Shown here in pieces: positions 20,679-63,429 of a stretch of 64,000 bases of DNA; position 1 is the stretch's first letter, and each line of letters begins with the position of its first letter. The notes beneath the pieces were generated by a model, which worked only from the letters and a program-made list of their open reading frames with translations, was not told the origin of the DNA and ran no database searches. Position numbers and translations under genes: made by a program. The stretch is from Diphasiastrum complanatum (Eukaryota; Streptophyta; Lycopodiopsida; Lycopodiales; Lycopodiaceae): positions 40,899,368 to 40,963,367 of the forward strand of contig CM055103.1 of assembly GCA_029204225.1 (NCBI GenBank), written 5' to 3'.

Positions 20679-22050
<1,372 letters not shown>

Positions 22051-24496: not shown

Positions 24497-24499
24497 CTT

Positions 24500-30533: not shown

Positions 30534-30540
30534 TCTCTAT

Positions 30541-31950: not shown

Positions 31951-31951
31951 A

Positions 31952-32304: not shown

Positions 32305-32400
32305 TAAGTTTAGATCAAAGCTTTTTGTACTTAAAGTTTGTTGACTTTAAAGCTATGTATATGACTGTATAAAAAGTAGACTCTACTTTAAGGGAGAGAG

Positions 32401-33365: not shown

Positions 33366-33366
33366 T

Positions 33367-33849: not shown

Positions 33850-33962
33850 AGGCCAACCAGAATGTGAAGCTCAAGCAACAAGTAGACGTAGAGTATTCTA
33901 CTTACAAACCGGCGCAAAGGTCTCCTCATAGTCGATGCCTTTACTTTGTGCATACCCTTTGA

Positions 33963-34660: not shown

Positions 34661-34681
34661 AAAGCAACGATCATGGGCGAA

Positions 34682-35831: not shown

Positions 35832-37138
35832 TGCAAAACTGCTTGAAACTTCTGCCGTAGGCTAAAAACAGTATGCCGAGGCCAACAGTGATGTCAAAAG
35901 TTGAAAATGATGACCTGTGCTTTTTCCCTTACCAGGCCACTCGCCGCTTTTCCACCAATTTGAAAGCCGAATCGGTGTCGCCTTCTGAAATGCACTTAGT
36001 CGTCAACTCCCAACAACGTGCCCAGTGGAATGGTGAAATTACTTTTGGCGCACTCTGAACACTTTCTCCATTGAAATCACTCTGTTTTTCTGTACCGTAC
36101 TTGCAGGTACAGTCCGGGTGCCCTTCATTTGGAGGTTATAGCCTTTCGTTTGGGTCAAAACGGGCAAAGGACCCAAAAATAGGGACTTTTCTAGTTTTTG
36201 AACTGTTTCTTCACCTTGAAGAAACTTCACTCTTCACTTGTGAAGGGACCCAACTCCAATTTCAATATGAAAATTTTTAATGAAGTTGAAGGCCAAAATG
36301 CACTTCACTTCTTCAGGGTCCTCTTCAACGACCCTTCAGACTCCATCCAAAGGTCGATTCTGATCCAATCGTGGATATCCCTTTTGGATAGCATGAACTG
36401 AGTCGTTGATCTTGTAGCTTCTCTATCCAACAGATCTGAGCACTCTTGTGCACTAATGGAGAGTCTTGTAAGCGCTACCCACTCCGAAATGCTATGGTTT
36501 CACTCTGGTTCCACGCGCGAACAGTCCGCGACCTCCCCGTCTACGGCTGCGCCTCCCCACACTCGTTTTTGCTTGATCTAACTCGCCTATGGATCGATTT
36601 GAGCACGATCTAAGGCCTGGAGCAAGGTCACCCTACTGACACCAAGTTTGTAGAGTGCTCATTCAAGAAATTCCGTGGAGAAATGGTGATTTTAGCTCAA
36701 CTTGACAAAGTGGCTTTTTTCACCTTTTACCGCAAATCTACTAGGTTAATTATCTGGAGACAAATCTCTGTCATAAACCTTAGAATCTCTCCATAGCTAG
36801 TTGACAATGTGATTAGCTTCCTTCTTGTCCTTATGGCATCCAAAACGGTGCACAAACAGCGAAGAAATCGCCAGTTATGTATAAAAAACCGTAACCCCAA
36901 CCCGGTTTCAATTTTCAGTTGGCTTCAAAATTGTCAATTTTTCACCAAATTTTTCCCTGTTTGATGCTATGCACAGGCTAATAATCCCTCTACTGAGCTT
37001 GGCAAGCCTCTATAAACTAGAAACCGTGCACCAGTGCTTCTCTTTCCGTCTTCAACCCGCCGTAAACCCCAAACTCTCAGAAGACAGTTCTCCCGAAGCT
37101 CTCTTCAACGACGATGTTGTACTGTGTACACTCCCTCT
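35832..37138 (-). other. Leader of family C copia element
   Basis: About 1.3 kb between primer site and gag start. Forward ORFs here (for example 35873-36058) have no recognisable domain. No gene is seen. Confidence 0.6.
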
Positions 37139-37153
37139 ATGGCTCTGATACCA
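37139..37153 (-). promoter_or_regulatory. Primer binding site of family C copia element
   Basis: The reverse complement reads TGGTATCAGAGCCAT, complementary to the initiator methionine tRNA used by most plant copia elements. It sits two bases inside the LTR. Confidence 0.93.
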
Positions 37154-37155
37154 AT

Positions 37156-37425
37156 TTAGAATTTGCTTTGCACAGGAACACAGATCATGCTACACAGTAA
37201 CACAGACAGAAAACACTCTCCACAGCAAGCTCACATAGCAACTATATTTCTCAAAATGAAATTACACTGTACATATAGTTGTTCACTCAGGCAACCCATG
37301 CATGACCCGAGTTGCCGTTGGTGGGACGCGTGTCCCATCGACTTGCCTCGTGGTGAGGCCAACTGATCCTTATCCACTGATAGAACCTGCAATACAATAA
37401 CACAGTGATTCTACTATAATTCTAA
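37156..37425 (-). repeat. LTR, copia family C, reverse copy (5' LTR)
   Basis: Inverted near-identical copy of 32401-32663. Reverse-strand ends are TTAGAATTATAG and CAAATTCTAA. Confidence 0.92.
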
Positions 37426-37499
37426 CTCTACACACCTTAGGAGATCACAAGTACATGTTGTGGACAATCCACACGTGTGAAATCAACAATAGTTTCACC

Positions 37500-38040
37500 A
37501 AAGGCATGACAGACTACCGTAGAGTCCTGCAAACGGTCCATTATGAAAGAGACTGAAGTAAACCATAAAGTCTTCCTTACAGTCACATGCGAAGACTCAC
37601 CGCCAGGAACCGTGAGTGTCTAGCTTATGGTTACTTATGAAAGAAACCAAAGTAAACCATAGAGTCTTGCCTACGGCTACATACGGAGTGAACGAGCCGC
37701 AAGACACCTACAAGGTCTTGCTTATGTTCAACAACTTGAAGACTACAGCTCACCACCAAAGGCACCACAAGACACCGTAAGGTATCACTTACGGTCACAT
37801 ATGAAGACACAGAAGGAGTCAACCGCGATGAACCGTAACACTCCAGCCTACGACTCATTAAGTAGGATCATGTGCTTCGCACGATTGTTTTGTGATCTAA
37901 TATCGTTGTTACTACAACACCCTTATATACAAAAGCACTATTTTTCCATATCAGTTGTATTCATGCTGAATGTTTGAATGCCTCTAACTCTTTCTCTCTA
38001 TTATAGAACTTATAAGTGTCCTCTCACTTATACTCATAAT
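37500..38040 (+). repeat. LTR fragment, copia family B
   Basis: Shares blocks with 24500-25340, including ACACCGTAAG, AGTAGGATCA, GTGATCTAATATC and TTTTCCATATCAGTTGTATT. No primer site or gag follows, so it is a solo or truncated LTR. Confidence 0.75.
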
Positions 38041-41010: not shown

Positions 41011-42570
41011 TCAAAAGGTATACAGAATTTCAAACAAATTGAACTTGGCATAAATGGCACTACATTATAACTCTTACCAAGAATTGAATGATCACCAACC
41101 ACCTACTTGAACCCCGACTACATCGTGCTACAACATACATCGACATGGAGTTTGTAAAGGCCTTTGCAAGATTTTACTTATAGTTGGAAGTCAACAAGTG
41201 TACCACCAAAAAATTTGCTGCCACTCTATTTCTGCGTTGCAACTCACAAGCACTCAAAAAATGCAGCCAATATTAAATCAATCAAGCTCTTGAAAAGCAA
41301 TAGATCTTAAATGCATGATACAAATCATTTTCATGTTCAATCTATAGCTGATTAGCTTCCCTCCAAAAAACAAAATTTAAAAAGTAATTATATAAACATT
41401 GCCTTGACACACAATATTGCAAAAGTACAACACTTTATAGGGTTTCCTTGAAATATGGTTGGACTTTTATCACAGTTATCACAAAACTTTATATCAAAAT
41501 TTTACATGATACAAAATGGTTTTTAGTTTAATTGGTTGGTACTTGGTACCTTTCCTATATCTCAAAATTATGATACTATGTTGCAAAAGTCCTGCATTTC
41601 AAGAGGAACATGCAACATACATCATTCTACACAAAAATTACATTGAGAACTAAGTTTAAGAGAAATCCTCCTCTTCAAACATTCTTGCATCTGCAATAAG
41701 GTCCTCTTTGTCATCAATCAAAATTTCCTCTGATATGCCAAGTCGACATCACTGCAAGCTGGTTATAATTACAGCAATGCTGAAGATGCGTATCAGGTCT
41801 AGACTTGCATCACCAAAATCCATAATTTCAAATTTAGCAGACAATAAACTCAAACAGTTTCTATAGAACCCATGCACTCCTATAGTGGCATGTGGAGTTA
41901 CACATGGTATGTAATGGTTGCATGCATGTAGAGGGTCTATCAATTGGATTTAGATTAAGACCAGATTTCATGGGGATTACATGTCATCATGCATAGACTA
42001 TCATAGACCATATCTATATGTAGAAACTTGACCTTCTACCACAAAGAATTCTTGAGTTCTTGTCTCCGTTCTGTATCTTCTATTCACATATTGTGGCTTG
42101 GAATTGAGATTTAAGTGGCTAATTTTAGGCCTCTACTTGATTGAGTACTTTGGCTCCAGTATCTCCTTTCACATTAGGAGAAATATGGGCTCAAAATGGG
42201 CCCTTTAAGAAATTTCACTCTAGAGAGAGGTTACATAGAGAGAGAATGCAAACCGATAACTTTTGGTCATCATTTTTTGAGTTTTCGGCCTTGCCCAACG
42301 TTTAAATAGCATGGTTAACTTCAGACAATAGTTAGTTAAGCATGAGATGTAATAACTTCTCTTCATGCTCGTTCCAAAATTCGGGACTAGAGCTTTAAGA
42401 GTGAAAATCTTGGGGTGCTCAATGCAAAAACTGAAGCAGGAGAGGCAGAACTTTTGAAATCACTGTATGCTTATAGTGAAATATGAGGCGGGATGATTTT
42501 TCAATGCGACATAAACATTACAAAAGTAAGGAATGCTAGATCTATTCATATTGATTTACTATAGTTTGAT
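41011..42570. other. No gene recognised; left flank of element 1
   Basis: Only short ORFs. The left terminus of the downstream multi-gene element must lie somewhere here or just before 42.58 kb, but I could not find an inverted repeat or target duplication by eye. Confidence 0.45.
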
Positions 42571-42578
42571 TCATTTAC

Positions 42579-45270
42579 ATGATTGTAGCTTTGACAATGG
42601 CAATTTTCCTTTTGCATGTTGCTCTTCCGATGGAATGCACTCCAATTATTAAGGAAAATGCGAAAGTTGTAGAGAATACTGCTACAATAGTCAGAGAATT
42701 GAGAATGAATAATCATATGGATATAGATTTGTGGGTGGATGGATCAATTTATCCTAATGATCCAGCTACCAATTTGTGTCCAGATTTTAAGTCCGTAACT
42801 CATCTTCTCAGATATGTATGTGAAGGAAATAGCGGATTTCTTGGATATTGTCAAAGGTTGCGTGATATTGGAATGCATAGCATATCTTGTCTTAATCAAC
42901 AATTACAGTTTGCTAATCAACAATTGCAACGTGCAAATCAACAATTACTTCATTATGTGCAACACACTAGTGTTGAAAACAATGCACTCAAGAATGCTAT
43001 GTCAGAGTTGAATGCTACTATCACTACTCTTCGGGGATCAAACGAAGAAATGTTAGAATCCATGGAAAAGTTGCTTTCCGAGAGTTTAAAATATGTTGTT
43101 GATATAAAAGTTATAAAAAGGCAATGATGAAGAGAAAAAGAAAGAGAGTACCGATGAAGAATATTGATGACTTATCTACACATAGCGGCAATCAGAAAAA
43201 AAAAATTCGAGCATTCAAGTATGTTGTCATATAAACTGTTTATTTGATTTGTGTATGTCATTCAAGTTTGATTTGCACTTGATAACATGGATTATTTATT
43301 TATTAAACATAATTTGAGTTTCATATGTTTGCTGCAGATCATGTTTGGTGGCAAAAAACTATTTAACAGATCGTTCATGCATTGGATCATCTTTAAGTCA
43401 TGTTTTACCCAAAAAAATCAACAAAGAAAATGATAAAAAAATGTTCGGTTTGAAAAAATGAAAAATGAAATTGTAGATACTGTTTTGATTAAGGTTCAAT
43501 CATACTTGGATACGAATGTGATACAAGGTGCATGTAATGTATCTGGAATTAGCAAAAATACTTATTCTACATTTTTTAGAATAGTTAAAGAAGCTCTTTC
43601 CCAAGTGATGGTGAAGAAAATTTATCTTCCACATCCATATTGGGTAAGATTAGCTAGAAATTTTTATAATGACGGAATGTTCAAAGTAGTTGGCCAACCA
43701 CTTCATATAACTGAATTATACATATCAGAATATGGTGAGCTCAATTACAATGATTGCAATAATATTTTTCTTGATATTGAAAATGTTCTAAAATACATTA
43801 TTTGATTCTATAAACTAGACGAACATCAAGTAAATGGAAAGATCATTATTGTAATAAAATTGGATGAATCTAAAATCATCAAGGGTCAGAAGTTGGAACG
43901 AGTGAGTGTCACTTTGATGAACAAAATTTCAGATACAAATGATCGAACATTTAGTGTTCAATCAGAAATTCACATATGGTGGTTGGCGGCATTCCAGATA
44001 TACATTTCAATTTTCATTTAGAATATCTTTATTAATAATTCATACCTTGTCAGTTTTTATTAATATGTCATGCATTACTTGTTTCTCTACAGGTCTTGAA
44101 AGAGGACCATAAAAATACTTTCATGGATATTTTCAAAAACAAATTATGCCAAAGAGACATTTGAGGGTGAGAAATTTATAGTCGAAAACCATGGAAGTTT
44201 TCAAATTCAATGGCACCTTGCAGGGGATTTGAAAATATTAAAATGTATGTATAATGTCTCTCATGGGGCAACATCAAGGCATCTATGTCTTTATTGCATG
44301 AAGGATCGCTACAATATGAATTTGGGACGATCAACAAACACTGGCCCAACACGAGAAGCTACGATCCAAATATGAAAAGTGTTATGCCAATTCCATTAAA
44401 ATATGTTCACATATGCACATTGCATGCTGAGGTTTGTATTATTGAAAAGCTGATTTACCTGCATATTCTACTAGCATGGAATCATAAATCGGAGTTTGTG
44501 GCTAAAGCAGTAATTAAGAGGTTGGAAATAGTTCTGTCAAATGCGAGACTACATAAAAGGAATGTCACGATTGAAAAAAGTGACATACTCTCCGGGAAAA
44601 AAGGAAACGTTCCTAATAAGCCATCAATTATTGCTAAAACAAGGAGATTCTTATCCAATCACACATGCAAAGAATCAAGTGTCACATAGAAATTTGGAGA
44701 GAAAGTGTTCAAGCCACACGAACACTAGAAGGAAGTAATCGAGTGGAAAAGGGACAAGTGTGGACCAACTTAGACAAACTCATAGGTGTTGTCAGGAAAG
44801 AAAACCTATCATTAGAAGATATGAGAACTTTGCAAAATCATTGCACCACATTTGTAAAATCTGTACATGATTGTTGGAGAAAAGACAACGTTACTCATTA
44901 CATGGTGCTAATCTATATCATTATCTGGTACTTTTCTCATTCAAGCTTATATTATTTTTCTACTGATGTAACTAATCAAAACTATTGTTTGTAGCACATC
45001 CTTCTTCATCATGCAACTTATTTTGCAAAGGAATATGGGAGCTTAAGTATCTAGTCATCACAAGGCATGGAAAAATCTCATTGGCAAGCAAGGGGAGCAT
45101 TTCATAGAGCAACAAATCATGGAGGACACAATTCAAGAAATAAATATTTAGTTCAACTTTTTCAGTGGTTTTATAGAAGAGCACAATTTAGATATCAAGC
45201 TAAAAACTCGCCAAGTATTATGATATTTCGAAAGACATTCAAATTCATAACAAAAGAGAGATCCTTGTAA
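42579..45270 (+). pseudogene. Transposase-like gene of element 1, four exons
   Basis: Proposed exons: 42579-43218, 43338-43997, 44093-44904 and 44995-45270. Exon 1 encodes DLWVDGSIYPNDPAT, a SVTHLLRYVCEGNSGFLGYC block and a Gln-rich coiled coil. Exon 2 has IQGACNVSGISKNTY and, past a stop at 43802, VNGKIIIVIKLDES (candidate catalytic Asp) and a terminal WWLAAFQ. Exon 3 has WHLAGDLKILKCMYNVSHGA followed by a CLYC pair. Exon 4 has SSQGMEKSHWQARGAFHRAT. The GDLK-CxxC and EKSH blocks resemble some DDE/RNase H-fold transposases, but no family was matched. Damage includes stops, frameshifts near 43.13, 43.46, 44.16 and 44.33 kb, and a lost GT at the exon 2 donor (CAGAT). Confidence 0.6.
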
Positions 45271-46733
45271 ATTCTAAATTTTTTCTCTTGCTCATGTCAA
45301 TGTAACCCGAATAAAAGGCCATTGCAGATGATCTTTTTGTAGTCTCATTGGGAGTATAACCCAATATCTTAATAGCCAAATCTCTTTTCACAAAAATTAT
45401 TTTATATGTTCCTCTTGCGTACTTATGGCCTCCTAAACAAACTGATAATGATTTGATGGCCATAATGACAGTGGTTGCATATGGATTAAAAGATGAATGA
45501 TATACACAAATCTCATTATTTTGAAAGTGTTTCAAATAATGAGATAGAGACACATCTTTTCTCTCGGCTGATACACCACAGACGCCTCCATGTCTCATAC
45601 CAAAGGCATCTATTTCAATAGCATCCTGTAAACGAGAAAAATAAATAAATTTAGAATTATACATAACACTGCAAACTCAATAAGAAAACTGAACAATATC
45701 AATACCAATATAATATCTACGTACCAAATCATAATCATCTTAATCAATGACGTTTGCTCTGCTAATGTCATGTCCTCCAATGGCCTCTACATTTCTAGAG
45801 GAGATATATCTAGGCCTTGGGGGATATTTTTTTTGGGAATTCCAAAAATTCCTCCTCTGTAGGCAAAGTTTTTTCATAGGCTTTAGATTTTTCAATCATG
45901 GCCTCCAAGGCCTCATTGCCAGATTTCCAATTGCCATCTTTATCATAATCTATCTCACTTTCAAGGTCATCATATGAGTGTAAAAAAACCTCAAATAAAT
46001 TTTGAGCAAAAATTGAGAGGATTTCATCTTCTCTCAAATTCAAAACATCTTCTATATCATTAAATGAAATATAACTTTCATTATTTATAAAATATAAGCG
46101 AACATCGAGTAGAGTTAATTGATTAACAGGAGATGCAGATGGAAGAGAATCAGAGAGGATTATAGAACGAGGGAGAGTTTTTTGATAATCTGAAATCATA
46201 GATGCTTCAGTCTCAACCCCTATATCAGTATCTGAATCATCTACATCAACTGGAGCAGGTGCAGATGCTTCGATCAATGGAACAGTTGAAGATTCAACAG
46301 ACTCATCATCTAGAATTTCAGCATATATGTAAAAGACAATTGCCACTCCTTTGATAAGAAGGCCACATATTCTTTTGTGGATATCACAATATATATTACT
46401 TTTGAAATGGTCATGCAGGTTAGAGTATTTTCTATTGTGTTTATACTTAGAGGATGGTTGGGAATGCACAAGGCCCTAAAAATGAACGAAACAAAAACTA
46501 TCTATATCCAAAACAGGAGTACTAATAAACTGAGAAAAATAATCAAGATAAGATATTAAATTATAATGATTCTCATAAACTAGTTTATTGATATCGAAGG
46601 GAGCAAAAAAAATACTAGCAAAATACTCTAATTTCTCAGATGGAATGTCACTGGCATTAAAAAAATTCAGAAGTTTGTTATCTGAAGACATGGAGGAACT
46701 AGCCATATTCGAGGAATGAACAAGAGTGCACAC
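45245..46733 (-). pseudogene. Gene X of element 1, unknown function, reverse strand
   Basis: Reverse frames 46733-46476, 46469-45810 and 45664-45245. The first matches the N-terminus of the element 2 gene (LDYFxxF, then SxPVxxI). The second is acidic in the middle and ends with a conserved block, ESYISFNDIEDVLNLREDEIL. The third has NEICVYHSSFNP and KIIFVKRDLAIKILGYT. The intron between 45724 and about 45629 matches one in element 2. It contains stops and frameshifts. VKRDLAIKILGY recalls the start of BRO-N-type domains, but that is only a visual likeness. It is convergent with the transposase gene, the 3' ends meeting at about 45.25 kb. Confidence 0.55.
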
Positions 46734-47721
46734 GTTGATCCGATATTGTTAGGACAAGATTAAAATTTGTCGCGAGCACACTTCAAAATTGGCTGATATC
46801 AATCTAGCGCGCCTGAATGAATCCTACCATACACTGTTTGGGAAGGCGTGCATCGATTCGATATCGCAAGATAGAAAGAAAACAAAAGACTAGTGAGTTC
46901 AAAATAAAAGATCACAGAATCGAAATATGGCAAGTGGTGTCCATATTTATAGCCAATTCTTGTTGATCATAGCCATACATTTGTCAAATAACGAATTGAG
47001 AAACACAACCTATATTTATCCACCAATCAAAGTGAGATTTGGTAGACTCTTCATACTGTTAAAAGTTACGCAGAATCTATCGAGTCAAGTTCTGATCATT
47101 CATATTCCGTCCAATATCAGTTCAGCGCGCGAAAATAGCACCTCTGGTTTTCACATGCTGTATATGCGCGTCGATTAGCTATCGGGTGAAATACTGGCTT
47201 TTGGAATTTTCGAAAATCATAATGATTGGATATAAAAAAGGTCAGATATTTATAACTTAACCTTGTCAATTTCAGCAATAAATTGTAGATGTGACCATAT
47301 TTTTGTAGATGTGACCATATTTTAGTTTAAGTTAGTTCTGGTTTATTCAATATCGGCTAATCATTTTGATGATAGATGGATATTTAGTTTGATTTGATTG
47401 ACAAGCCTCGGAGTAATTATCATCGTAATTCGAACCTCGGACATCCAACCCACCACGTTTGCAATCATTTTGGATTTTCTCTATATATACTGATGGACGA
47501 CGCTGAATTTTTTTTGTTTAAAGTTCTTGCAGTTCTCTAAATCCATGCGATTTCGATTCAGCGCGCTCGAAACAAACTTCCTACGATCCGCTATTACTCG
47601 CGCGCGTCCATCCGCTAATAGCTATCAGTTTGGTTGAGCTCAGGTATCGGTTCGATGCGCTTGACCTGACTTCTGATCTTGGGTTTTCCTTCATCGCACG
47701 CTGCTCTGATATTGGACATTA
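46734..47721. promoter_or_regulatory. Divergent intergenic region with recurrent GATATCGG/GCGC motif
   Basis: Non-coding DNA between gene X and the H3/Ulp1 gene. Motif copies in both orientations include 46728-46747, 46794-46812, 46846-46866, 47111-47131 and 47643-47660. Partial forms lie at 47166-47186 and 47547-47570. The consensus, read by eye, is ATATCGGWTCRACGYGC. Local GCGC density is well above the surrounding AT-rich DNA. Confidence 0.65.
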
Positions 47722-48193
47722 ATGGTGCGGACCAAGCAAACAGCACCGCCACCCTGGTGGAATACCAATCTCAGGAGCGTGTCAGGGAAATCCGCCACCA
47801 CCATCTCGTCCACCACCACCTCCTCCTAGGCCAAGGGGGAGAAGAAGAGACCCACCTTGGCTCAAAGATATTCGGAAGCTATAGAAGACAAATAATCTTC
47901 TGATTTCAAAAGCTCACATATAGGGATCCATCAGAGACGTTACAAGAAGTCTATTTGCACATGTGAGATGGATGATAATGATAATTGAGGCATTGCACAC
48001 TACATATGAGGATTTTCAGGTGAAATTTTTTTCAAATACTGTTGTTGCAGTTGTCCATGCCAAGAGGGTGACCATCATGCCTAAGGATTTCAACATTGTG
48101 TTCAGGCTTCGGGACACATATGACAAATATGTAGAATACTTTAGACCTACTCCCTCCTCTCCTCCAAAACAATATTTAGAGAGGAGAAAATGA
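47722..48193 (+). pseudogene. Divergent histone H3-like domain in transposon
   Basis: Frame 1 starts at 47722 with MVRTKQTA, where H3 starts MARTKQTA. After a frame change the core runs from 47861: LKDIRKL, then a stop (47882), KTNNLLI, a second stop (47921), IRDVT, a W in RW, EAL, YEDF and an exact HAKRVTIMPKD followed by FNIVFRLR. From L48 to R131 it aligns to H3 without gaps, about one third identical by hand. The tail-to-core spacing is 136 nt against 141 in H3. EDF, KDF and RW are reminiscent of plant CENH3, but loop 1 has H3 length. The frame stays open past the H3 end to 48193 towards a Ulp1-like part. As written it is a pseudogene. Confidence 0.8.
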
Positions 48194-49178
48194 AAGCAAT
48201 CTCAACCATCCCGGCTTGTCAGAGCGGGAGTGTTTCAAAGAAGAGGAGGTCTCTTGACCCTCCAAATAAAATGAGGGATTTTTCCAAGCCATCTCCTCTG
48301 GATGAGATTCTTTCTTCTAGGCATTCTCCTCCCAATTTTCCTCCTAAGTCTCCTTCTTCTCCTCCCAAAACTCCATCTTTACCTTCTCCTGCTAAATCTC
48401 TCTCCTAATAAATCTCCTCCTCCTACCCCCATAAATTTTAGTTCCCCTCCTCTTGTTCTAGGAAATGATTTAAATGACTTTGTTAATGTAAAGGTAGAAT
48501 CAATTTTGAATGACAATTCTTTTTCTGGTTTATCTGTATTACTTCCGTCACCCCTTGCACTTGCCTTTGTAAATACTCCTCAATATGTACATTATGACCA
48601 ATTGTTAAACACGTATCTTAAAGCTTTAGATACAGGTGAATTAGAAAGTAGGGATAAAATGTTAGGTGACAATGTAGGAGGTGGGGCCATTCAATACTAG
48701 ATGGAGTTTCTCCAGACCCCATTGTTTATAGATGTAGCATTGTTTCCCCTTCAATTCATGGCTACATTTTATTTCCCTGATTTCAAAAGTCTGCACGATG
48801 ATATGCTCCAATACGTCAGTTTGGGGACTCCAATTCTTGTGATGTCATACATAACAAAGTAAGTGTCTTTTTTTCAGATTTTTTTTTTTGAAATTTTCAT
48901 ATGAATTTTGATTTCACATTGATTCTCATAAATTTATTGTTTTCTGATTGTAGTGATCATTGGAGCTTATGTGTGTTGTCCTTATACGTCAATGATGAGG
49001 GTGTGTGTCCAGTTTGTTTAAAGATGAACTCTATTACACACATACACAAAATTGCCAGGAGCCATATCCAGAAAATACTGGAACTCTTTCTAGTACCAAA
49101 TGCAAAAGCATATATGAAGCTAAAAATTGTTGATGCAGAGGTAAAAATTTATCAATATCGGTTCGACGCGCCCTTGTA
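48194..49178 (+). pseudogene. Pro-rich linker and Ulp1/C48-like protease, element 1
   Basis: A basic KKRRSLDPPNK patch (about 48240-48275, possible nuclear signal) and a Ser/Pro-rich linker precede the frame 48302-48858, interrupted by TAG at 48698. This frame ends ILVMSYIT and splices (donor 48859, acceptor 48953) to an exon giving NDHWSLCVL. Ulp1/SENP proteases, which cut SUMO-like tags, show a hydrophobic strand followed by HWxL at this place, so H is the candidate catalytic His. The next expected Asp seems replaced by Asn (MNS). No catalytic Cys block (DCG) was found before the frame ends at 49178. It looks like a truncated or dead protease. Confidence 0.6.
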
Positions 49179-49311
49179 GTTATTGTTTGATTTCTTTTCA
49201 TAATGTGTGCACTGATCCGATATTCAAACAATATATTTTGGATATCGGTCTCACATGCGCATGTCTCCGTTGTAGATTTAATTATAACATCCTGCACGTT
49301 GATCCGATATC
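49154..49311. promoter_or_regulatory. Right-side cluster of recurrent motif copies
   Basis: Copies at 49154-49171 (AATATCGGTTCGACGCGC), 49207-49224 (reverse), 49240-49260 (partial) and 49294-49311 (reverse, GCACGTTGATCCGATATC). The reverse copy at 46728 shares CACGTTGATCCGATAT with the last one. Confidence 0.65.
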
Positions 49312-49359
49312 TCATAATGTTAAAATCTGGATTCTGTAGTCCTCCCACTAGGTTGATTC

Positions 49360-49965
<606 letters not shown>

Positions 49966-50639: not shown

Positions 50640-52248
50640 ACTTTTTTACTATAAGTTAAACAAGACCTCTAAACAATCTGAAATATGTTATGTGCCACAA
50701 GCATAGAACAAAGACCAAAGATGAACCTATTTTTATTTTTCCCTCCAACAGTTGTCAACTTGAATAAGTAAGATGGGAGGGAGATTGCCACATGCAAGTT
50801 GCACCTTTCGTATTGCTCGCATAATGGATGTGACCACCTGATTTCTATCATGCAGATGCAAGGTGTCTATCCACACATCACAGAGCAATTTGAATCCGTG
50901 AACTAGCACTCCACAAACATGCATTTTCAAAAAAATGGTTACCCTCCAATCTTGGAGGAGTTTTTTTGAAATGGGACAATGTTGTTGTATTTTGATCCAT
51001 GCCATCAATAATAAGGCACAACGATTGCTCTAGATGTGATCTTGATTCTTCTTTCTTGTATGTGTATAGCTTTCTCGAGTCGAAAACATGCAATAAGCGA
51101 CAATTTCTCCTTGCAATATGGCAATTTTGCACCTTAATATCAGTTTCGATCACATTTTTTAGCTCATCACAAATCTTGCATTTGGACATTCTTTGTTTTG
51201 TTGGAGTCTTGACATGTTGAAACTCGTGTCTGCACAACCAATACAATATATTTCTGGAGATTGTGGAAGTTCTTTGTTGATGGAATTGAAGACATCACCT
51301 TTAGACATGCCAACAGGGAGATGATGTTCACAAGGAACTACTCCATCTTTTGATTTATGTTGAAGATGCGGTTGGGGTAGAGCATGCTTTTCCAAAATTC
51401 CATGCATAATAGCAATTCCCCGTCTTGAATGTGTGCGTTGTTTTAATGTACCTGTGTTTCCATGAAATTTTTAGACAATATTGTTGTGTGCCTCTGAGAT
51501 TATCTGCCAAAACATTCCATGGAAAACTCCCAATAGATCTTGAAATGCCTTTGAACATATGGTTTTATCTGAAACTACGGGTTTACGTCTTAAATTGGAT
51601 TCTTCCCACATATTGCACGCAAGGTTCAAATTATCTCGTGCCTTCAAAAAACACCTGAACATTTGTAAAAGGTACTTATGTTTATCCGATCCTCGCTTTC
51701 TCCATACACTTAGTCTCAAGTCTTCACATTCTTTGTTCTGTGTTCTTCATAGTGACGAATGCAAACACATGTTTTCTTTTGCAATTTCGAGAAGCTCCAA
51801 AAGATTCAAAACTTGGATCATGTTGCATTGGACTTTCAAAACTTTGCTCGTGTGATTGACCAACTCTTGATACAGATTCTTTTAACATTTCATTCCAATT
51901 ACCTATCTTGTCGTCTTCATCGACATCAAACATAGAAAAATTTGAATCATGTTGTCTAGAAGCATTAGAAAGCAACGTTGTAGAAGATGCACTTGTTGTC
52001 TTCTTGGATTGTCTTGCCATTTGAGAAAATCTACGGTGACTGTCGGTGATAGCATTCGCTTGAGATGGATTGCACTGTTCATTTTCCACATTAACATTTC
52101 TCATATGCATCAATAAATTTAAACTAGACCCATTTCGCCGAGATACATCATTGTTAACCACATCGTCTATCCTAGTTAGGATGTGAATTCCGTTTTTACA
52201 TTTTTTTTTTTTGTCTTTTTTTTTTACATAAATTTTTTTTACACGCAC
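50640..52248 (-). pseudogene. DUF7869-like transposon-associated gene, decayed
   Basis: Reverse frames, in order: 52248-51724 (basic start, then Ser/Asn-rich, no domain), 51719-51471, 51407-51159 (Cys/His rich: YCIGCADTSFN, then a Cys), 51246-50878 (CLIIDGMDQNTTTLSHF) and 51008-50690 (GVLVHGFKLLCDVW, ILLIQVDNCWRE). The DGMDQ ... HVxGxLVHG ... LPPxLxxQxDN order is what I know from the DUF7869 domain, found in repeated, transposon-like proteins of plants, protists and animals. No enzymatic function is established. Several frame breaks make it non-functional. Confidence 0.65.
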
Positions 52249-52319
52249 CTTCCGGGTGGAAGGTGCATGTAAAAAACCGAAAAAAATTTTACGTGCACCT
52301 TCCGGTGTCCGGAAGGTGC
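52245..52319. repeat. Two perfect hairpins with shared stem sequence
   Basis: 52245-52266 reads GCACCTTCC, loop GGGT, GGAAGGTGC. 52295-52319 reads GCACCTTCCGG, loop TGT, CCGGAAGGTGC. Both sit in A/T homopolymer-rich text. They might be a small element's terminus. Confidence 0.85.
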
Positions 52320-53057
52320 CTATAAAAAAAAATTAAATTTTTGCCCCACAGATTACGTTCTGTGAGGCTTCACCATTTCCTTTGTAAAAATTTAAAAACT
52401 GATTTTACAGTGGGCAGTCGTGACTCGCGCGTTGCCACACAAACCTAGCAGGTGAAAGGAAACAAGGAGTTTTTATATTTCGCATGAGCAACTGATTGAT
52501 CGACCCCACTTTCTCCATCTAAATTTTGGCTTATGATAATCCTTACGGCACTGACAATATCTATCTCGTACGTCTCTTGGTTCCAAAGTTCGACCTGCCA
52601 GGGAGCTGATTTATATGCTCGAAATATGTATTCTTTGTAGATCATCATACGAGTAGGTGCACATTAAGTCGTTCTATGTTTCATTAATATTTTGTACATC
52701 GGGATTCAGGATTCTTACGTTTGCTTACAACCACTTCAGACACGTCAAGTGTTTACACAGATAGGCAATCCTACAAGCAATGGACTGGTTTTAAAATTTA
52801 TGATTGATATTGAAACAAGTAGAAAGACAAAAGTTTAAAATTCAGCTAAAATATGACCTTGAAAGAGAAAAGGAGAGAGCCAAAAATCTAAAAATCAGGT
52901 AAAATATGAGTTCAAGCGACTTGAAGAAAAAAGAGTGTGAACACTGATTAAACTATATTAATAATATAGTTCCCTGTTACTTTCATGAGTCATATCCCAA
53001 ATTGGCCCCGAAATACTTCTTTGACCACTGAGTGTCCCCCGGGAGCTCTCTGATGCT
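52320..53057. other. No gene recognised
   Basis: Short ORFs only. 52340-52420 shows weak similarity to 53215-53300 (GTAAAAATTTAAAAAC-like text). Confidence 0.4.
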
Positions 53058-53370: not shown

Positions 53371-54282
53371 TTGAAGACAGTGTTTCAGAGCCATTGGTAC
53401 TTGATACCTATCTTATCTGTAACGAATTTTGCTGTGGCACTTGCAGGGGAACTCCATAACTATACCCTGTGCAAAATTTTAGAAGGAGATGCATTGCAGA
53501 GCAGCTTGAAAATTCAAATGGACATGGTGCTATTTGAAACCTGCAATTTTTTTTCTGAAAAAGAAAACTCTAATTCGGTCGGATCCTTTTCCTCCTTTGA
53601 AGCAAGGGAAATTCAGACGCCACAATCAGCTGGCAATGTTGAAAATCTAGTGGGTGTAATGTGTTACGAACATTATGACGGGGCGTAGCAGTATTATGAA
53701 AAGCCTGCAAAGATAAGTAAAACAAGTTACTCGCAAGACCAAAACAATCAACAAGTGCAAGCTGTATCAGAGTTTTGTAAGATGCCTGAACAAACATTAC
53801 CACACGAGCAGGAAGAGCTGCAGGATCAGTTTCTAGAAGAGGATATTTCTTCCTTTGCTGAACTTCTCAATGAATTACAAGATGAGACGTACGATCTGGT
53901 TTCTCAAATTACAACCATCCACGGAGATTTAGAGTTCGGCCATCTTTACAGAAAGAAGACAGCTGTGTGGTCGATGATGCTCTCTTAGCAGCCACGCTCA
54001 ACGATTCAAATATTGTTCTACCGTCAAGCACAAGTCAAACGCAAGTCAGATCAACTAATTCTCTCACTTGACACCTCAAGGGCAACGGCTTGCACTCAAA
54101 TCAAGAAGTCGAACACTATCACGGCGGAACGTAAGAGGCGGCAAAAGCTGAGGCTGCTGAGCCAACGTTTTATTGCTCTTTCTGCTGTCATTCCAGATCT
54201 CAAAAAGGTAAAACCAGAACATACTCTGAATCTCTTGAAGAGTAATCTTCTTAGTTCGGTAGATTATGTAAGTCTTCACTAA
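53371..54282 (+). pseudogene. bHLH transcription factor, broken copy
   Basis: Frames 53371-53688, 53755-53988 and 54013-54282. The last holds the bHLH basic region and helix 1: TAERKRRQKLRLLSQRFIA and LSAVIPDLKK, close to plant bHLHs of the NAI1/bHLH18-25 group as I recall them. E and R residues for E-box contact are present. The second helix is lost (a stretch of Leu/Ser text replaces the usual KASVLGDAI). Upstream frames are acidic and may be the N-terminal part. A stop separates them. This is a pseudogene, split at 54.28 kb by retroelement DNA. Confidence 0.7.
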
Positions 54283-54825
54283 GTCTTCACAGGAAGCTTA
54301 TTTGCAAGCAACACGTACTGATGTGACTCACTCAAACTATTCAATGTCAATTGTACGATCTCACGATCTTGTACTCGCTCTCCAAGTGCTGCTAATCGGT
54401 CATTAATCTCTTTGATCTTCAGTATGTGATCGTGATCTACAATAGTTGCGCCATCATCTATTCGCAATGTATGCAACTTCGTCTTCAGAAATAGTATGAG
54501 ATGTATTTGTCGTTTCAAACAATGCATTCAATGTATCCCACGTTTCTTTTGATCCTTCTGAATCTGAAATATAAGGAATAATTGCATCTTTAACTAATAA
54601 GTTGATGACATTCTGGGCTTTCCTTTTTCTCCTATAATTTACTTCGTGGTTATTGCAAGCTAAACAGACTAGAGAAAACAGTGATAGTAGCATCTGGTCC
54701 GTGCTCATCAAAGTCCACTGAAGAAAAAGAGAGGCCTTGTTGGAAAGATACTTGCAGAGGTCGAGGAGAGTCATTTGTTGGTGAGCAATGTGCAGATTCC
54801 TTCGTTTTCCCAGACAGAACTCCAC
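54279..54825 (-). pseudogene. Copia gag fragment inserted in bHLH copy
   Basis: Reverse frames 54825-54454 and 54527-54279 read VINLLVKDAIIPYISD, SKETWDTLNALFE and LHTLRIDDGATIVDH, the UBN2 gag core. They overlap by a frameshift. No LTR was found at either end. Confidence 0.78.
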
Positions 54826-55046
54826 GTAATTCTCATAGCTAAAGTAAGTGAGCTTGAAGGTGCTAGTTTCAACAGATGTTTCTTATGCAAATGCATTTGT
54901 GCATCGTGTCACTATTCAAAATTCCAGAGTATCCTCTCTCTAAACCCGGATCTTGGTTTGCTGATTAGACGCAATGTGTAGTTAGTACAAGAGCTTGCTT
55001 GTCTGGTTACTAACAAACTTGAATTACTGGTTATTGCTCCTCTTAT

Positions 55047-57386: not shown

Positions 57387-57961
57387 CCGAGAAGCCACAC
57401 AGAGATAGGAAATTGGTCTGTACAGTGTTTTTACCATTAGAGGAGTTCTCAATATCAAAAAGACCCTTTAAGGAATGCCATGTAGGATATACAAAAAAAT
57501 CAAAATAAATAAAACAATATTGTTTATTTGCTTGCCCACACCACTCCCAAGGCCTTCCCAACTCCTAATGATCTATTCACAGTGTCTATAGTCACAATTA
57601 AGAACTGTTAACAATTTTGCAGTATAACTTGACTAAATTCAAAAATATTCTCTCCATTGGTTACGAAAAGGGCAATATTTTCACTGGATCTAGAATATGA
57701 CCGCCATACCCAAATTCGAATCAGGAAAAATTGCAAAATGTTTACATATGCATTCCTTCCACGAGAATAGAAACATGAGCACCAACTACCTATTGGAATG
57801 AAAAAATGAGCGGCATTTCCAAATTTGAATCAAGCATACAAGCATGGAGATTGGATTGATCGTACATAGTATATAATATAATCAAAGATGAGTATTTTGT
57901 TTTGCTTCATAGAATCTGGTCATAGTACTTTGATGCAACTAATTAGTCTATTATTTTTTTT
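57387..57961. other. No gene; left flank of element 2
   Basis: AT-rich with no recognisable ORF. The left end of element 2 is not identified. Confidence 0.4.
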
Positions 57962-60604
57962 ATGATGACATTATATCATCTACATGTGGATATCCCTATT
58001 GATTTGGCACCTTTGCAGAGAAGAGGAGGCAAAGGAGTTCAAATATCTGCTGAAGATCGTTCTCGTTACAGGGCAAAAGGAAAGAAAAACGTGGATTTGT
58101 GGACAGATGGAACATTATATCCACAAGATCCAAGCACTTTGACACATCCCACATTCTCTTCAATAACTCATTTAGTTACATGGATATGCAATGGGCATAG
58201 TGGATTACTAGGATATTGTGAAAGATTACAAAACCATGGAAAACAACTTTATATGAATAAAGTTCACTTTTTAGAAGGTGAGTTAATTCGGATATCCTCT
58301 TATTGTCAGAATAGAATTTGTCATCTCCAAAAGACGTTAGAAGAAAATGAACAACTTCAAAAAAATAATGAATCATTACAGAAGATAACAATCAATATCA
58401 AATCAAAATTAGAGCAAATGCAATCAGTCTTACAGTCTATTCGTATTGAAAACTTACAATTACTAAAGGATGTGGATTTGGTAAAGAAGAAGGCTGAAAG
58501 TAAGAAGCGAAAGCGACAAAGTTGCAAGGATATTCAAACGCTTTCAAAAGGAGATTATTGAAATAGAAGGATCCATGCATTCAAGTAAGCATATTCTGAA
58601 TTTTGTAAGTTTTTCAATGACATTTGGATTTAATTTCAGCTATGGTGATATTTTGTTAACTATCTATTTTTTTTGCAAATCTACATTAGTAGCTCCTCAG
58701 AATATTAAAGACAATGCTTCACTAGGAATGTCATTGGGCACAATATTGACTTGCAAATCCACTGAGCGTATCATGATGAACTATAGAATTTCAAATGTAA
58801 AGTGTAAAATAGCAGAGTCTTTGATGGTGTACATTCAAAATATTTTAGAGAAGACTATAGTTCAAGGTGCTTGTGATTTTGCAAGTATTAGTAGGGAAGC
58901 ATATGCAACAATATTTAAACTAATTAGAGAAGCTTTTAAGCAAGTTCAAATTAGAAAAGTCCCAATCCCTAGGACATATCACTTGAAGAAAGAGAGGAAT
59001 ACATTAAACATAGGTATGCATAAGATCACTGGAACTCCATTTCATATTGAGGAGGTGTATGAAACTGATAGAAGATCGATATTCTATAATTCATCAAACA
59101 ATTTATTTGTTGATCTAAATTACTTGTTGAGATACATCGTCACATTCTATGGTATAACTTATGAAAAGGTGAATGGCAAAATAATCATAGTACTTTAGTT
59201 AGATGAGTCAGAAATTGTGAAAGGAAAAAAGATGGAAAGGGTTAGTATAACTATCATGAATGGTGCTCTATCACAAACAGAGAACCAAGAAGATTTCAAA
59301 TTCAGTGTCTAGTCAAAAAATGATATATGGTGGTTGGCAGCGTTTCAGGTAACTAGCCTCATTATTACATTACATTCATTGAATAGTATTAATACATTGT
59401 AAACTAAGTATGATTAATTCTTTGGACAGGTGATGAAAGAGGATCATGATATATTATCATGGATATTCTCAAGGACATCTTATTCTAGGATCATCAAGGA
59501 CCTTATGGATGGAGGACTTCTCAATGTTCCAGGAGTTGGAGACTTCAATGTTGAATGGCACTTAGCAGGTGATTTGAAAACATTGAAATGTATGTATAAT
59601 GTTTCTCATGGTGCTACATCAAAACACCCTTGTTTGTACTACATGAAAATGGCAAAAGATGTAACTAGGAGTACATGAATTACTAGAGAATATGCAGATC
59701 CAAACTGGAAGCATGTGTTGTCTATCCCCTTAAAAAATGTGCATGTTTGCACTACAGAAGTTAGATTAATAGAAAAGATCATTTATCTTCATATAGTTTT
59801 TGCTTGGAATACTAAGCCAGCATCATTAGCAAAGGAAGCTATCTCTCGATTAGAAGATGTTTTATCAAAAGCAAGACTCCATAAAAGACATGTCAAAATT
59901 TAAAAAGATGAAAAGCTTTCAGGAAAGAATGGGAACATGCCAACTAAGCCAAGCATAGGAGGAGCAAAAACATGTCGTTTTCTATCAAATCATACTGGTA
60001 AGGCTTCTAATATTCAACACTCAGTGTGGACAGATATTATTGCTGCCACTCAGGACTTCGAGAAAGACGGCAAAACCAGAGTACTAAAAGTTGATGTATG
60101 GAAAAAGCTTGATAGTATGATTGCTATTTTAAGAAAAGAAAATTACTTTGATATTGATAAGAAAGCTGTCCAAAGGACTTGTGTCGAGTTTATTTATGCA
60201 ATATCAAAAGCATGGGGAGAAGATCACATCACTCATTACATGGTTAGTATAAAATTTTCAAAATGCTTTCAAATTTTCATATATATTTAGATCCAAACAT
60301 AAAACTAACATTATGATTTTGACATATGCAGCACATACTAAGAGATCATACATCATTTTTTGCAAATACATATGAAAGCTTGAGTGTATGGTCATCACAA
60401 GGGATGGAGAAGTCACACTGGCAAGCACGAGCAGCATTTCATCGAAATACACAACATGGAGGAACCAATGAAAAATGAAACTACATTTGTCAATTGTTTC
60501 AATGGTTCTACCACAGAGTTTAGATTCAACATATAACAAAGTCCACACAATACAACAAGTTTAGAAAAGCATGCAAGTTCATACAGGAAGAGAAAATTAG
60601 ATGA
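57962..60604 (+). pseudogene. Transposase-like gene of element 2, four exons
   Basis: Proposed exons: 57962-58584, about 58679-59348, 59430-60242 and 60332-60604. Exon 1: DLWTDGTLYPQDPST, a WICNGHSGLLGYC block and a long coiled coil ending in a Lys/Arg patch, interrupted by TGA at 58559. Exon 2: KSTLVAP, VQGACDFASISREAY and VNGKIIIVL, then TAG at 59197 before LDESEIVKGKK (candidate catalytic Asp region), ending WWLAAFQ. Exon 3: FNVEWHLAGDLKTLKCMYN, a CLYYM variant of the Cys pair (second Cys lost) and HTGKAS. Exon 4: VWSSQGMEKSHWQARAAFHR. The acceptor before exon 2 reads AA where AG is expected. Family assignment is inferred only. Confidence 0.6.
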
Positions 60605-60833: not shown

Positions 60834-62199
60834 TCAATATAAGTGGAATACAATGAATGATGAGCTCCTTAAAGGAACATTCCCATCAGTAAAGCCTAAA
60901 ATGTTCAAAACATAAGATCTTTTGACAAAAATGATCTTATTTGACTTAACAAATTTATGTCTTCCTAGATAAAAAGATAAAGCTTTAACTGCCATTATAA
61001 GTCTCTTCCCGACTGGGCTCAGCTTAGAATGAGCAATACAGATCTCATTCTTCAAGAAATGCCTAAGATAGTAGCCCAGTCCACTGTCCCTCTGGAACGA
61101 GGATGCGTGTTGTCTGAAACCACCTCGTCTCGTAGCAAAATCATCTATTACGAGAGCATCCTACAATAGGAAATATGTTAGCAAAAACACATTCAGTGAT
61201 TGAAAACATTCAAATGCAAGGAAGATTAAACACATTCTTCATCATCATCAGCAACCAGATCAGGATGATCAATATAATGATCACGTACTAAAGTTGAATC
61301 ATTAGTGAAGTGCATTAATGATGGACGAGGGAAGCCCATCTGGGATTGAAATGCCGTGAATTCTTCATCGGATGGTCTGCCTCTCCCATCCTCAACTATA
61401 TTTGATAAAGTCTTATTCAGGCATTCTTCACTGGTTATAAGACACTTCTCATCATCAAAATCAATACCAACAACAAGGTCATCTGTCTCAAAATCTACAA
61501 AGTCAGAGAATTCGAAAATTGTGTCGGATAATAAACATAGAACCTCGTCCTCACGATAGTCAAAAAATTTACATAAATCGGCAGTAGTAAAATATACATC
61601 GTCATTAACATAATATACAGGCAAATTGAAAAGACATTTCGAATCCTCCATAGATTTGGATTCATCATCAGATGTATTTTGGCCAATGAAAGAATCAGGA
61701 GAACATCAGTATTTACATCAATGAAGTTACTTTCTATATCAGGAGTGTCGATAAGAAAGTGACTGATATCCTTAATGGCTGACTGAACAGAGGAGGGTAC
61801 AAAAAAGGGGTCAGCAACAGGAACTTCATCATTATCTGGGATCTGAACTAACAGAAAAAGTATGAATCCACTCTGATATTCAACCAATTGACATTTCTTG
61901 TTGCAATACGGACACATAGAACTACTTTTGAAAAGATCAAACAATTTGGTGAACATTTTATCTAGTCTACGTCTAAAAGCTGAGAAGAAATGAACAAGAT
62001 CTGTATAATGCATGTACTGGAGTGGACCTATGGAGAAAACAGGCTTGCTAAGTATATCTCTGAATCTGACATAATGTTCATAAAATACGTCAGAATTTGG
62101 TTGTGCAGTCCTAAAAACATGTAGATATGGCCTGAATAGACTGTGGAAGTAGTCTAGGTTTTTAGTAATCCCAAATTCACTCTCCCAATTTTTATACAT
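60834..62199 (-). pseudogene. Gene X of element 2, unknown function, reverse strand
   Basis: Reverse frames 62199-61495, 61651-61226 and 61055-60834. The N-terminal 234 residues have LDYFHSLFRPYLHVF, a CPYCNKKC zinc-binding-like motif and ILFLLVQIPDND. A shift of frame near 61.66 kb leads to an acidic middle with YFTTADLCKFFDYREDEVL. After an intron (about 61166-61230) the last exon reads NEICIAHSKLSP and IIFVKRSYVLNILGF. The same blocks in the same order occur in element 1. No domain is recognised. The TADLCKFF and VKRSYVLNILGF strings could fit a BRO-N or MSV199-type fold, but this is a guess. Confidence 0.55.
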
Positions 62200-62210
62200 A
62201 TATAGATTCG

Positions 62211-62740
62211 GATGATTATCTTAAATTTGAGAAAGACATATCGGATGCTATAGATACAATTGGTACTCCTTTTTGTTTTAGACTAGATGAACTTGATTTT
62301 AGTATTAATTTTAGAGTTCTAGATTGCCTGGATCTCAAAGACAGACAGCCTTCTATCAGTATTCCTGTAATAGAGTCCGGGCTTACACTCTTGCAATATG
62401 ACGTTGCAAGATATTCATCAAATGAGTTGCTGGTGCAGAGTAACTTCCTGCTTCAGGCCTTCAAGGAGAATAATGACACATTGTCACAATGTCTGACAAG
62501 TGGATTCACACCAGCAACAAAGTATCTGCTCATACCTTATCATACGAAGTAGGTTATATTAAATGCTTCTTGCTGTTTTATGCATTAACATTGGCATTGT
62601 CAATGAAAATAGTTCTTAGAATTGCAACTAAAAAAATTTCAATCTTATTTTGCAGTGACCACTGGAGTTTAAACTTGATCTCTATTAAGAGATCTGTAAA
62701 TAATATTATTAAATGTTTTTGTGTCAAGATGTTGGCCATT
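62211..62740 (+). pseudogene. Ulp1/C48-like protease fragment, element 2
   Basis: An open frame from 62169 (no start codon) reads DDYLKFEKDIS, a hydrophobic series and YLLIPYHT. It splices at 62548 to 62656 to give NDHWSLNLISIKRS and ends at TGA near 62752. IPxHTNDHWSL fits the Ulp1/SENP strand before the catalytic His. The N-terminus is missing and the intron position is the same as in element 1. A candidate Cys block may lie inverted at 63.2 kb. Confidence 0.6.
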
Positions 62741-63398
62741 ACTAATACATGAATGTTCTATTTTGCAGTTAATACATGAATGTTCTATTTTGCAGTTAAC
62801 ATGAATGTCATTATTTGTTTTACTATCCCAGCCTTGATCCATGAGATCTGACAAAGTCTCATCTGATAAATCCTTGCAAACAAATAAAGTTGGTGTCCTA
62901 CCTAGCACTCGAGAACAAATCAACAAATGTATGCAATGAGATAAACCAACTTAGGTGGACACTTTTTGAGCCTATGCTTATCTTCATAGCATTTTTAATA
63001 TCAATGAGTAGCTTGCATCTCAAGGATTCAGAAACAATGCTGTCAGGAGTAGGCCACTCATCACTTTGAAAACTAGGCAATGGAATTGCTTCGAGCTTGC
63101 CAAAACCTCCATCTATTTGTGGCATATATAAAGATTCATAAAAATAGATACCACAATCTGCAACTTCCTTTGGACTTCTTCCTCTGTATTGCAGCTTTCC
63201 AACATCAGAGTGAATCACGTCTAATATGCCTACAAGTGATTGTGCGGGCTCCCATTCACTTATGTTATACTTGGGTTTGCAAATGACTTTCATTGTGCTT
63301 GTTTTTTCATGAACTCTTAATGTATAATCCATAAGGTTTGGTGACAACGAGAGCACTGTATTATTGATAAGCATGAATAGTGGCAAGATGTTTCTCAC
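62669..63398 (-). pseudogene. Reverse ORFs with DCG motif, possible protease C-terminus
   Basis: Frames 63398-62898 and 62926-62669 overlap. The first has EWEPAQSLVGILDVI and SPKEVADCGIYFYESLYMP, then RCKLLIDIKNAM. DCG followed by aromatic residues is what C48 proteases show around the catalytic Cys, and an Arg-rich helix often follows. Orientation is opposite to the HW block at 62.66 kb, so it would require an inversion. It may also be an unrelated ORF. Two direct copies of a word containing ATGAATGTTCTATTTTGCAG lie at 62751-62795. Confidence 0.4.
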
Positions 63399-63429
63399 AA
63401 AAGGAAGGGATCAAAACCTTCTCTCCCAC

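Follow-up and report, generated by a model that had tools for sequence, protein, structure and literature searches.

Transposons that carry a histone H3 gene of their own are known from fungi, with H3L of Pyrenophora tritici-repentis (PMC3538342) and elements of Pseudocercospora, Cercospora and Sphaerulina (PMC6710886) described as hAT transposons in the available portions of these reports. The original prediction for this locus knew of no transposon described with its own H3, a view that these fungal elements contradict. The clubmoss elements analysed here resemble them in being DNA transposons of many copies that bear an H3-like gene (PMC3538342, PMC6710886). The two groups differ in several respects: the fungal elements are hAT, are found in fungi and come with no mention of Ulp1 in the portions available, with the Pseudocercospora copies inactivated by RIP (PMC6710886), whereas the clubmoss elements show no hAT or Pfam match in gene 1, carry an Ulp1-like fusion in one lineage, lack K9, share H3 between diverged families and display dN/dS below 1.

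Plant VANDAL/MULE elements with Kaonashi (KIU) genes are likewise three-gene elements with an Ulp1 domain in one gene, the KIU elements being non-TIR MULEs according to the accessible text (PMC13317346); the present elements possess terminal inverted repeats (TIRs), give no Pfam MULE match and place an H3 fold before the Ulp1-like domain. VANC proteins are anti-silencing proteins with motif arrays, and their elements, like copy A below, hold arrays of short motifs in non-coding parts, as described in the accessible sections of PMC5735166. Ginger1 also combines Ulp1 with a cut-and-paste element, the domain lying C-terminally on an integrase-like transposase and histones going unmentioned in the accessible part of the report (PMC2836005). 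Viral histones provide a further parallel of a selfish element encoding its own histone; they belong to DNA viruses, some being fused to proteins of unknown function, with no Ulp1 fusion mentioned in the available text (PMC9145170). For the self-made histones of DNA viruses and fungal hAT elements, a role for the element is not described in the available portions of these reports (PMC9145170, PMC3538342, PMC6710886). A search of the literature, mainly open-access with few subscription papers and no bioRxiv preprints, listed among its matches no plant transposon with an H3 gene and no H3::Ulp1 fusion, and the Ulp1 fusion, the loss of K9 and the spread over families appear new.

The H3-like stretch of the window is shown here to belong to gene 3 of a DNA transposon with TIRs, its identity and its membership in the transposon being almost beyond doubt and a selected function of gene 3 being very probable. 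The best overall explanation, to which we assign a probability of about 0.55, is that the transposon H3(-Ulp1) gene provides the element's own anti-silencing H3 variant. H3 is a selected gene of plant transposons in two families, with some two thousand termini each in one genome, and this genome is a natural experiment in H3 evolution free of host H3 constraints.

Two copies of one element in the window

The window, meaning the whole 64-kb stretch of DNA that was analysed, holds two copies of one element type, A from 42172 to at least 49140 and B from 57435, with only the left terminus of each seen. Gene 1 (+) and gene 2 (-) are common to both, as is the latter half of gene 3, which in each copy is interrupted by a putative intron at the same point upstream of DHWSL. 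Relatives in the same genome include two families, fam1 and fam2, and loci such as L017 and L021, to which several of the following features were matched:

42172..42203, + strand: left TIR of element A (CATTAGGAGAAATATGGGCTCAAAATGGGCCC), named by likeness to a similar terminus at L017 1498 and by CATTAG, which it has in common with the two-ended fam1 and fam2 TIRs
42570..45270, + strand: gene 1 of element A, decayed; 35-79% amino-acid identity to copy B in matched pieces, with third-position excess
45248..46710, - strand: gene 2 of element A, a protein of no assigned family, decayed; 26-43% amino-acid identity to copy B
46701..47721, no strand: divergent promoter region separating gene 2 from gene 3; CpG o/e 1.32; a motif like GCGCGTTGATCCGATATT in 11 copies
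47482..47489, + strand: TATA-like box (TATATATA)
47722..47745, + strand: H3-type N-terminal tip MVRTKQTA; K4 kept, P at the K9 position
47861..48112, + strand: H3-like histone fold; TAG at 47882 and 47921
48113..48190, + strand: C-terminal extension of the histone fold; TGA at 48191, beyond which relatives (L021) read on
48190..48478, + strand: Pro-rich linker; frame breaks near 48190 and 48405, open at the same place in L021
48479..48858, + strand: Ulp1-like region, first part, by alignment to copy B; TAG at 48698
48859..48953, + strand: inferred GT-AG intron; same place in copy B (about 62549-62655)
48954..49140, + strand: Ulp1-like region, exon 2 (DHWSL...KMNS), by likeness to relative L021
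49141..49317, no strand: non-coding stretch; 5 more motif copies; CpG o/e 1.80
49318..49960, + strand: putative LTR inserted in element A, recognised by eye; primer-site-like TGGTATCAGAGC follows
57435..57465, + strand: left TIR of element B; 31/31 identical to the fam1 TIR
57947..60480, + strand: gene 1 of element B, matched to A and relatives
60837..62180, - strand: gene 2 of element B, matched to A and relatives
62184..62549, + strand: gene 3 of element B, linker and first Ulp1-like part; 87-93% identical over 121 aa to five relatives
62654..62746, + strand: gene 3 of element B, Ulp1-like exon 2, matched to A and relatives

The gene 3 pieces of A and B align with a score of 95 against a shuffle maximum of 51 (1000 shuffles), and the third codon position is the most different in 10 of the 12 exon comparisons between the copies, five of which cover fewer than 30 codons and one of which (gene 1 exon c, 4 codons) is probably in the wrong frame. 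In gene 2 N (6 codons) it is the first position that differs most, and the last part of gene 3 exon 1 (8 codons) gives a tie. Gene 1, in the window as in its relatives, has no Pfam match, MULE transposase and hAT included, and neither gene 1 nor gene 2 of element A exceeds the cut-off of any Pfam family; gene 1 may be termed transposase-like by position and conservation only. The predicted fold of the gene 1 core (10 rows) reached a pLDDT of 44 and yielded nothing of use.

The right end of element A was searched for and not found. The putative LTR would truncate gene 3 of this element, and a second copy of it is absent from the 64-kb window. In copy B the promoter and the H3 part of gene 3 are missing, presumably through deletion, and copia-type sequence adjoins the copy downstream. 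The linker of copy B matches that of L014, L021, L022, L024 and L028, in each of which an H3 fold precedes it. Copia-type LTR retrotransposon pieces are located at 22000-38000, 54282-54882 and 63377-63990 of the window, exhibiting RVT_2, gag_pre-integrs, rve, SH3_retrovirus and Pol_BBD domains and a weak gag match. Beside copy A, 50878-52332 (-) contains pieces of a possible other transposase gene (LIIDGMDQNTTTLSHFKKTP...), which we take to be transposase-like and to belong to a different DNA element. Rfam and tRNA scans yielded nothing of use.

Searches against Pfam profiles and PDB chains both assign the fold of copy A (47861-48112, +) to the histones, with Pfam Histone PF00125 matched at E 3.5e-12 and 47.1 bits (cut-off 26.4) and PDB H3 chains at E about 1e-12. 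Its frame translates as LKDIRKL*KTNNLLISKAHI*GSIRDVTRSLFAHVRWMIMIIEALHTTYEDFQVKFFSNTVVAVVHAKRVTIMPKDFNIVFRLR. The gapless alignment to the H3 core on which the original prediction was built holds, with 30 of 84 columns (36%) identical to a reference H3 sequence not drawn from a database, and so do the two in-fold stops at 47882 and 47921, both TAG, and the exact HAKRVTIMPKD (48056-48088), an 11-residue run identical to H3 with a P of 0.0005 under simulated neutral decay, reflecting either strong loop 2 constraint or an old exchange with host H3. The tip MVRTKQTA at 47722 is the sole place with at least 6 of the 8 residues of MARTKQTA among 127,952 places on both strands of the window. Its distance to the fold, 139 nt against 144 in H3 as counted on the sequence, is close to the predicted spacing, with the correction that tip and fold lie in different reading frames, which implies a frame break between them. 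Alignment scores of the window copy were 142 against plant H3.1 and 141 against Arabidopsis CENH3, both references likewise not drawn from a database. Single-sequence structure prediction of the H3-like part gave a pLDDT of 49 and was of no further use. In scans of viral contigs, neither the H3-like part nor the gene 1 and gene 2 pieces (one each) gave a confirmed match, and a genome-contig collection scanned with the H3-like part gave none either. The window copy of gene 3 is dead. A reading of TAG as glutamine was rejected: among five host H3 genes TAG ends two (L004, L007), TAA two and TGA one, and genes in copies A and B are, as judged by eye, interrupted by TGA and TAA too.

Relatives in the same genome and the Ulp1-like half of gene 3

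A PF00125 profile search of the source genome (1.74 Gb, 5176 contigs) scored 150 of 6325 first-look candidates. Among these, 13 canonical H3 genes reached 164-165 bits; below them, at about 83-110 bits, came H3-like places, many of which contain long open frames. Twenty H3-like loci were examined, mostly picked for long open frames from the top of these 150, a sample that thereby favours intact copies and low dN/dS. An H3 fold with a long C-terminal extension and the linker, or its start, is present in 7 of the 20 (L014, L017, L020, L021, L022, L024 and L028), all of which except L017 constitute fam1. L021 (4776-5768), L024 (4846-5838) and L022 (4223-5215) each contain a single 331-aa open frame running from the tip through the fold and linker to a splice site before DHWSL, their linker protein being the one retained in copy B. 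In L020 the fold and linker are joined in frame with a stop in the tip, and stops occur inside the fold of L014 and soon after the fold of L028.

Twelve further loci (L009-L013, L015, L016, L018, L019, L023, L026 and L027) form fam2, whose H3 gene comprises a tip MARTKQTARDP, a long Pro-rich stretch and an H3 core that in most copies terminates with RRERN before the stop codon; in L009 a single frame of 417 aa spans tip and core, with the frame broken between them in several others. None of the fam2 frames seen continues from H3 into Ulp1, a stop closing the H3 part. PF00125 scores of L017, L021, L009 and L025 are 93-105 bits. Open H3 frames occur in other copies, in L021, L022 and L024 of fam1 and L009 of fam2, and the transposon-borne H3-like domain that had been predicted is upheld, being carried in open frames by two diverged families.

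The order gene 1 (+), gene 2 (-), H3::Ulp1 (+) of copy A recurs in five of the six fam1 loci (L014, L020, L021, L024 and L028), L022 having no gene 1 or gene 2 match within its 10 kb, and the arrangement of gene 1, gene 2 and H3 in L017 agrees with it. Gene 1 of fam2 is 26-45% identical to the fam1 type (matches of at least 80 aa). Gene 2-like matches accompany H3 in 10 of the 12 fam2 loci (not L010 or L013), always on the opposite strand, and a gene 1-like set is found in 7, opposite to H3 in six and on the same strand in L023. Of the other five, L011 and L013 show a single short gene 1 match and L009, L010 and L027 no match. L025 represents a third kind of H3-like gene (4515-4556 and 4923-5204, tip MARTKQTAREPQ) near a gene 2-like stretch, its fold giving side matches to CENP-S and CBF/NF-Y; another H3-like copy, this one decayed, lies at 7098-7339 of the locus.

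The Ulp1-like half of the gene had escaped the original prediction, as had the TIRs, gene 3 of copy B and the loss of K9. In L021 the stretches after the linker read SDHWSLNLISI...KMNS...PQQNDSFNCGWYTL, and the exons, joined by eye, match Peptidase_C48 (PF02902) at E 6.9e-11 and 42.8 bits (cut-off 20.7), with exon 3 borders set by eye and splice sites inferred from the sequence; the C48-like part includes PQQNDSFNCGW. Gene 3 would join an H3 fold to an Ulp1 (C48)-like domain if the inferred introns are right, as the conserved splice sites suggest. Against the truncated pieces of the window, PF02902 gave no match in the exon region of copy A and E 0.048 with 13.9 bits, under the cut-off of 20.7, in copy B; the Ulp1 reading from the window copies alone, unsupported above cut-off by Pfam or PDB, was accepted only after the relatives had been considered. 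The catalytic residues of Ulp1 (peptidase C48) are H, D, Q and C. L021 presents H in DHWSL, Q and C in PQQNDSFNCG and N (KMNS) at the Asp position, and an active protease is unproven, the triad Asp appearing as Asn.

Both families are TIR DNA transposons, with inverted termini at both ends (CATTAGAGGAGTTCTCAATATCAAAAAGACC in fam1, CATTAGGGCCCTTTTTGGACTCAAAAAGGGCC in fam2), elements of 8.7-9.3 kb and many copies. Counted as TIR starts, not whole elements, from the first 22 nt with up to 2 mismatches, fam1 has 2146 and fam2 1998, with backward controls of 0 and 1 and of 0 and 0, respectively. Target-site duplications of 4-12 bases were not found at the termini of the full-length elements E21, E24, F16 and F19, chance 4-mers off the termini aside, and none of 3 bases was detected by eye. 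Among the matches listed, which are exact matches on C1-C3, 14 fam2 termini lie at 48.6-50.2 Mb of C1, all on the minus strand, and 28 fam1 and 9 fam2 termini at 64.97-66.68 Mb, while fam2 termini are dispersed over C2. Centromere targeting, considered for the C1 clusters, was rejected, with both families at 65 Mb and fam2 alone at 49 Mb; the C1 termini often follow one another at 55-80 kb steps, making segmental arrays likelier.

Selection, tail and affinity of the H3-like domain

The H3 core is under purifying selection, the comparison between copies giving a dN/dS of 0.25 in fam1 (bootstrap 0.14-0.43; 6 copies, 15 pairs) and 0.45 in fam2 (bootstrap 0.24-0.84; 12 copies, 66 pairs). These values below 1 argue against passenger capture, by which a host H3 or CENH3 would have been transduplicated into the element, as in fungal hAT, without function for it. 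Such capture has fungal precedents, with hundreds of dead H3 copies reported in the accessible text of PMC6710886, and would suit the dead window copy, but tip and fold occur together in families whose gene 1 is only 26-45% alike and core hydrophobicity is kept, rendering it very improbable.

Simulated neutral decay of plant H3, starting from a protein sequence not drawn from a database, required about 146 substitutions to reach 30 of 84 identities, with 7-22 indels expected (0.05-0.15 per substitution) against none seen in the 84 codons (P about 1e-3 to 1e-8). The two stops in the fold, against 3.4 expected (P 0.33), are as neutrality would give, so that between these counts neutrality of the window fold is opposed by the indels only. 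Of the 31 columns that are always hydrophobic, 28 still hold a hydrophobic residue, where neutral decay would leave 20.6 on average (P 0.001); the column set comes from 7 reference rows, 6 of them not drawn from a database, with extra loop-1 residues of CENH3-type rows trimmed. At family-invariant sites, retained residues show only weak enrichment (Fisher P 0.037, or 0.10 when HAKRVTIMPKD is left out; neutral simulation P 0.05). The original prediction had offered a decayed host H3 retrocopy beside the transposon as its alternative, which the stops and frame breaks of the window copy would fit; it fails against the missing indels, the kept hydrophobic core and the presence of the gene at the same place in independent copies of diverged families, some in open frames, and is hardly credible.

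The domain is an H3-like variant and not canonical H3, with the tip kept to about R8 and K9 gone. Among 22 tips read (12 fam2, 6 fam1, L017, L035, L025 and the window), which represent five kinds of element and not 22 independent losses, K4 is kept in 20, with R in L014 and E in L017, and K9 in none, host H3 reading ARTKQTARKS in the same comparison. In place of K9, fam2 has D in 10 tips and G in 2, fam1 has D in 5 and G in 1, L017 and L035 have A, L025 has E and the window has P. The fam1 tip DRRKQTRR matches ARTKQTAR at 5 of 8 positions in a register set by eye. Nearly all of the tail beyond R8 has gone along with K9, whose loss may therefore be incidental. Within the fold, the seven rows compared (host H3, the window and five further transposon rows) all agree at R83, H113, K115, R116, T118, D123 and R129, and R63 is missing from every row but host H3. 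Residues that we take to contact DNA are kept at 6-8 of 11 positions, and those presumably forming the H3-H3' bundle at 4-7 of 7.

On the CENH3-like character suggested as possible by the original prediction, the features point both ways. A65 is common to the transposon rows and two plant CENH3 reference sequences, and P63 (LIPRAPF and the like) occurs in fam1, L017 and 11 of 12 fam2 copies as in the same two CENH3s, neither residue being that of host H3; KDF and RW are present in the window copy. Loop length and tail tip are H3-like, however. Loop 1 of the plant CENH3 references is two residues longer than that of H3; in the compared transposon rows it has H3 length, with one additional residue in fam1. 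In a tree of 18 rows, with CENH3 represented only by references not drawn from a database, the window copy joins L017 (94/92), its long branch (1.16) making its place less sure than that of L017, and a starred split (97/97) sets the window, L017 and fam1 apart from host H3, CENH3-type rows, fam2 and L025. No more than two of the 15 inner branches carry a star, branches are long, and the tree does not separate an H3 from a CENH3 affinity. A CENH3-derived protein acting at centromeres, for targeting or drive, would account for A65, P63, KDF and RW, but is opposed by loop 1, by a tree that does not group the transposon rows with CENH3, and by termini that are dispersed over C2 in fam2, among the matches listed, or clustered on C1 in apparent segmental arrays; we regard it as quite improbable.

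CpG-rich islands and a possible role of the H3 variant

CpG o/e on the two sides of gene 3 in copy A is 1.32 (46701..47721, the highest 1-kb stretch of the window) and 1.80 (49141..49317), where the median 1-kb stretch has 0.41. With a matrix fitted to these same flanks, 16 of the 19 window-wide sites of the motif like GCGCGTTGATCCGATATT fall in them (mean under the null 0.2, maximum 5 in 200) and 3 elsewhere. With motif-like sites masked, 20 of 49 CpGs remain in the island at an o/e of 0.74, so the CpG excess is partly the motif itself, and the island may be an ordinary promoter. Each of the four full-length elements exhibits one CpG o/e peak of 1.1-1.5, located between gene 2 and gene 3 in fam1 and at 1.0-1.75 kb in fam2, where it does not adjoin the H3 gene.

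According to the anti-silencing reading, the element would make its own H3 variant, which would pair with host H4, enter nucleosomes and be deposited most usefully on the motif-rich, CpG-rich non-coding island of the element. With K4 kept and K9 gone, H3K9me2 would be barred from such nucleosomes, which would break the loop by which plants couple H3K9 methylation to CHG DNA methylation at these places. The Ulp1-like half might strip SUMO from silencing factors, and in fam2 the separate K9-less H3 would do the nucleosome job alone. This mechanism, drawn by analogy with the Ulp1-carrying VANC/KIU genes, is tentative, the odds lying somewhat against it. The broader proposal, that a plant DNA transposon superfamily turned H3 into an anti-silencing device, fused to a SUMO protease in one lineage, which remodels the element's own nucleosomes and so blocks the upkeep of H3K9/CHG methylation, is doubtful. 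The K9 required for silencing is absent from the tips read and K4 mostly retained, offering a direct test of whether a parasite escapes heterochromatin by replacing the nucleosome.

The main rival is an architectural role in transposition, in which the H3-like protein would bind transposon DNA or target nucleosomes and steer integration, with silencing unaffected. The retained DNA-contact and H3-H3' residues favour it, and integration may be unusual given the absence of target-site duplications at E21, E24, F16 and F19, but the loss of K9 with K4 kept and the CpG islands are left unexplained, and we consider this role unlikely. The element's own anti-silencing H3 variant is retained as the preferred reading.

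In all three pairs of copies compared, the frequency of C/T differences at CWG is 2.1-3.5 times that at CHH, the footprint expected of methylated plant transposons, and the CAG-to-TAG stops fit this CWG footprint. TAG also occurs, as judged by eye, in most rows with stops among the 150 scored candidates. The CpG-rich interval between gene 2 and gene 3 of L021 (4058-4945 in element coordinates) contains the repeated fam1 words CACGTGTC and ATATCGCA, which are unlike the copy A motif, as expected if motif and binding protein co-evolve.
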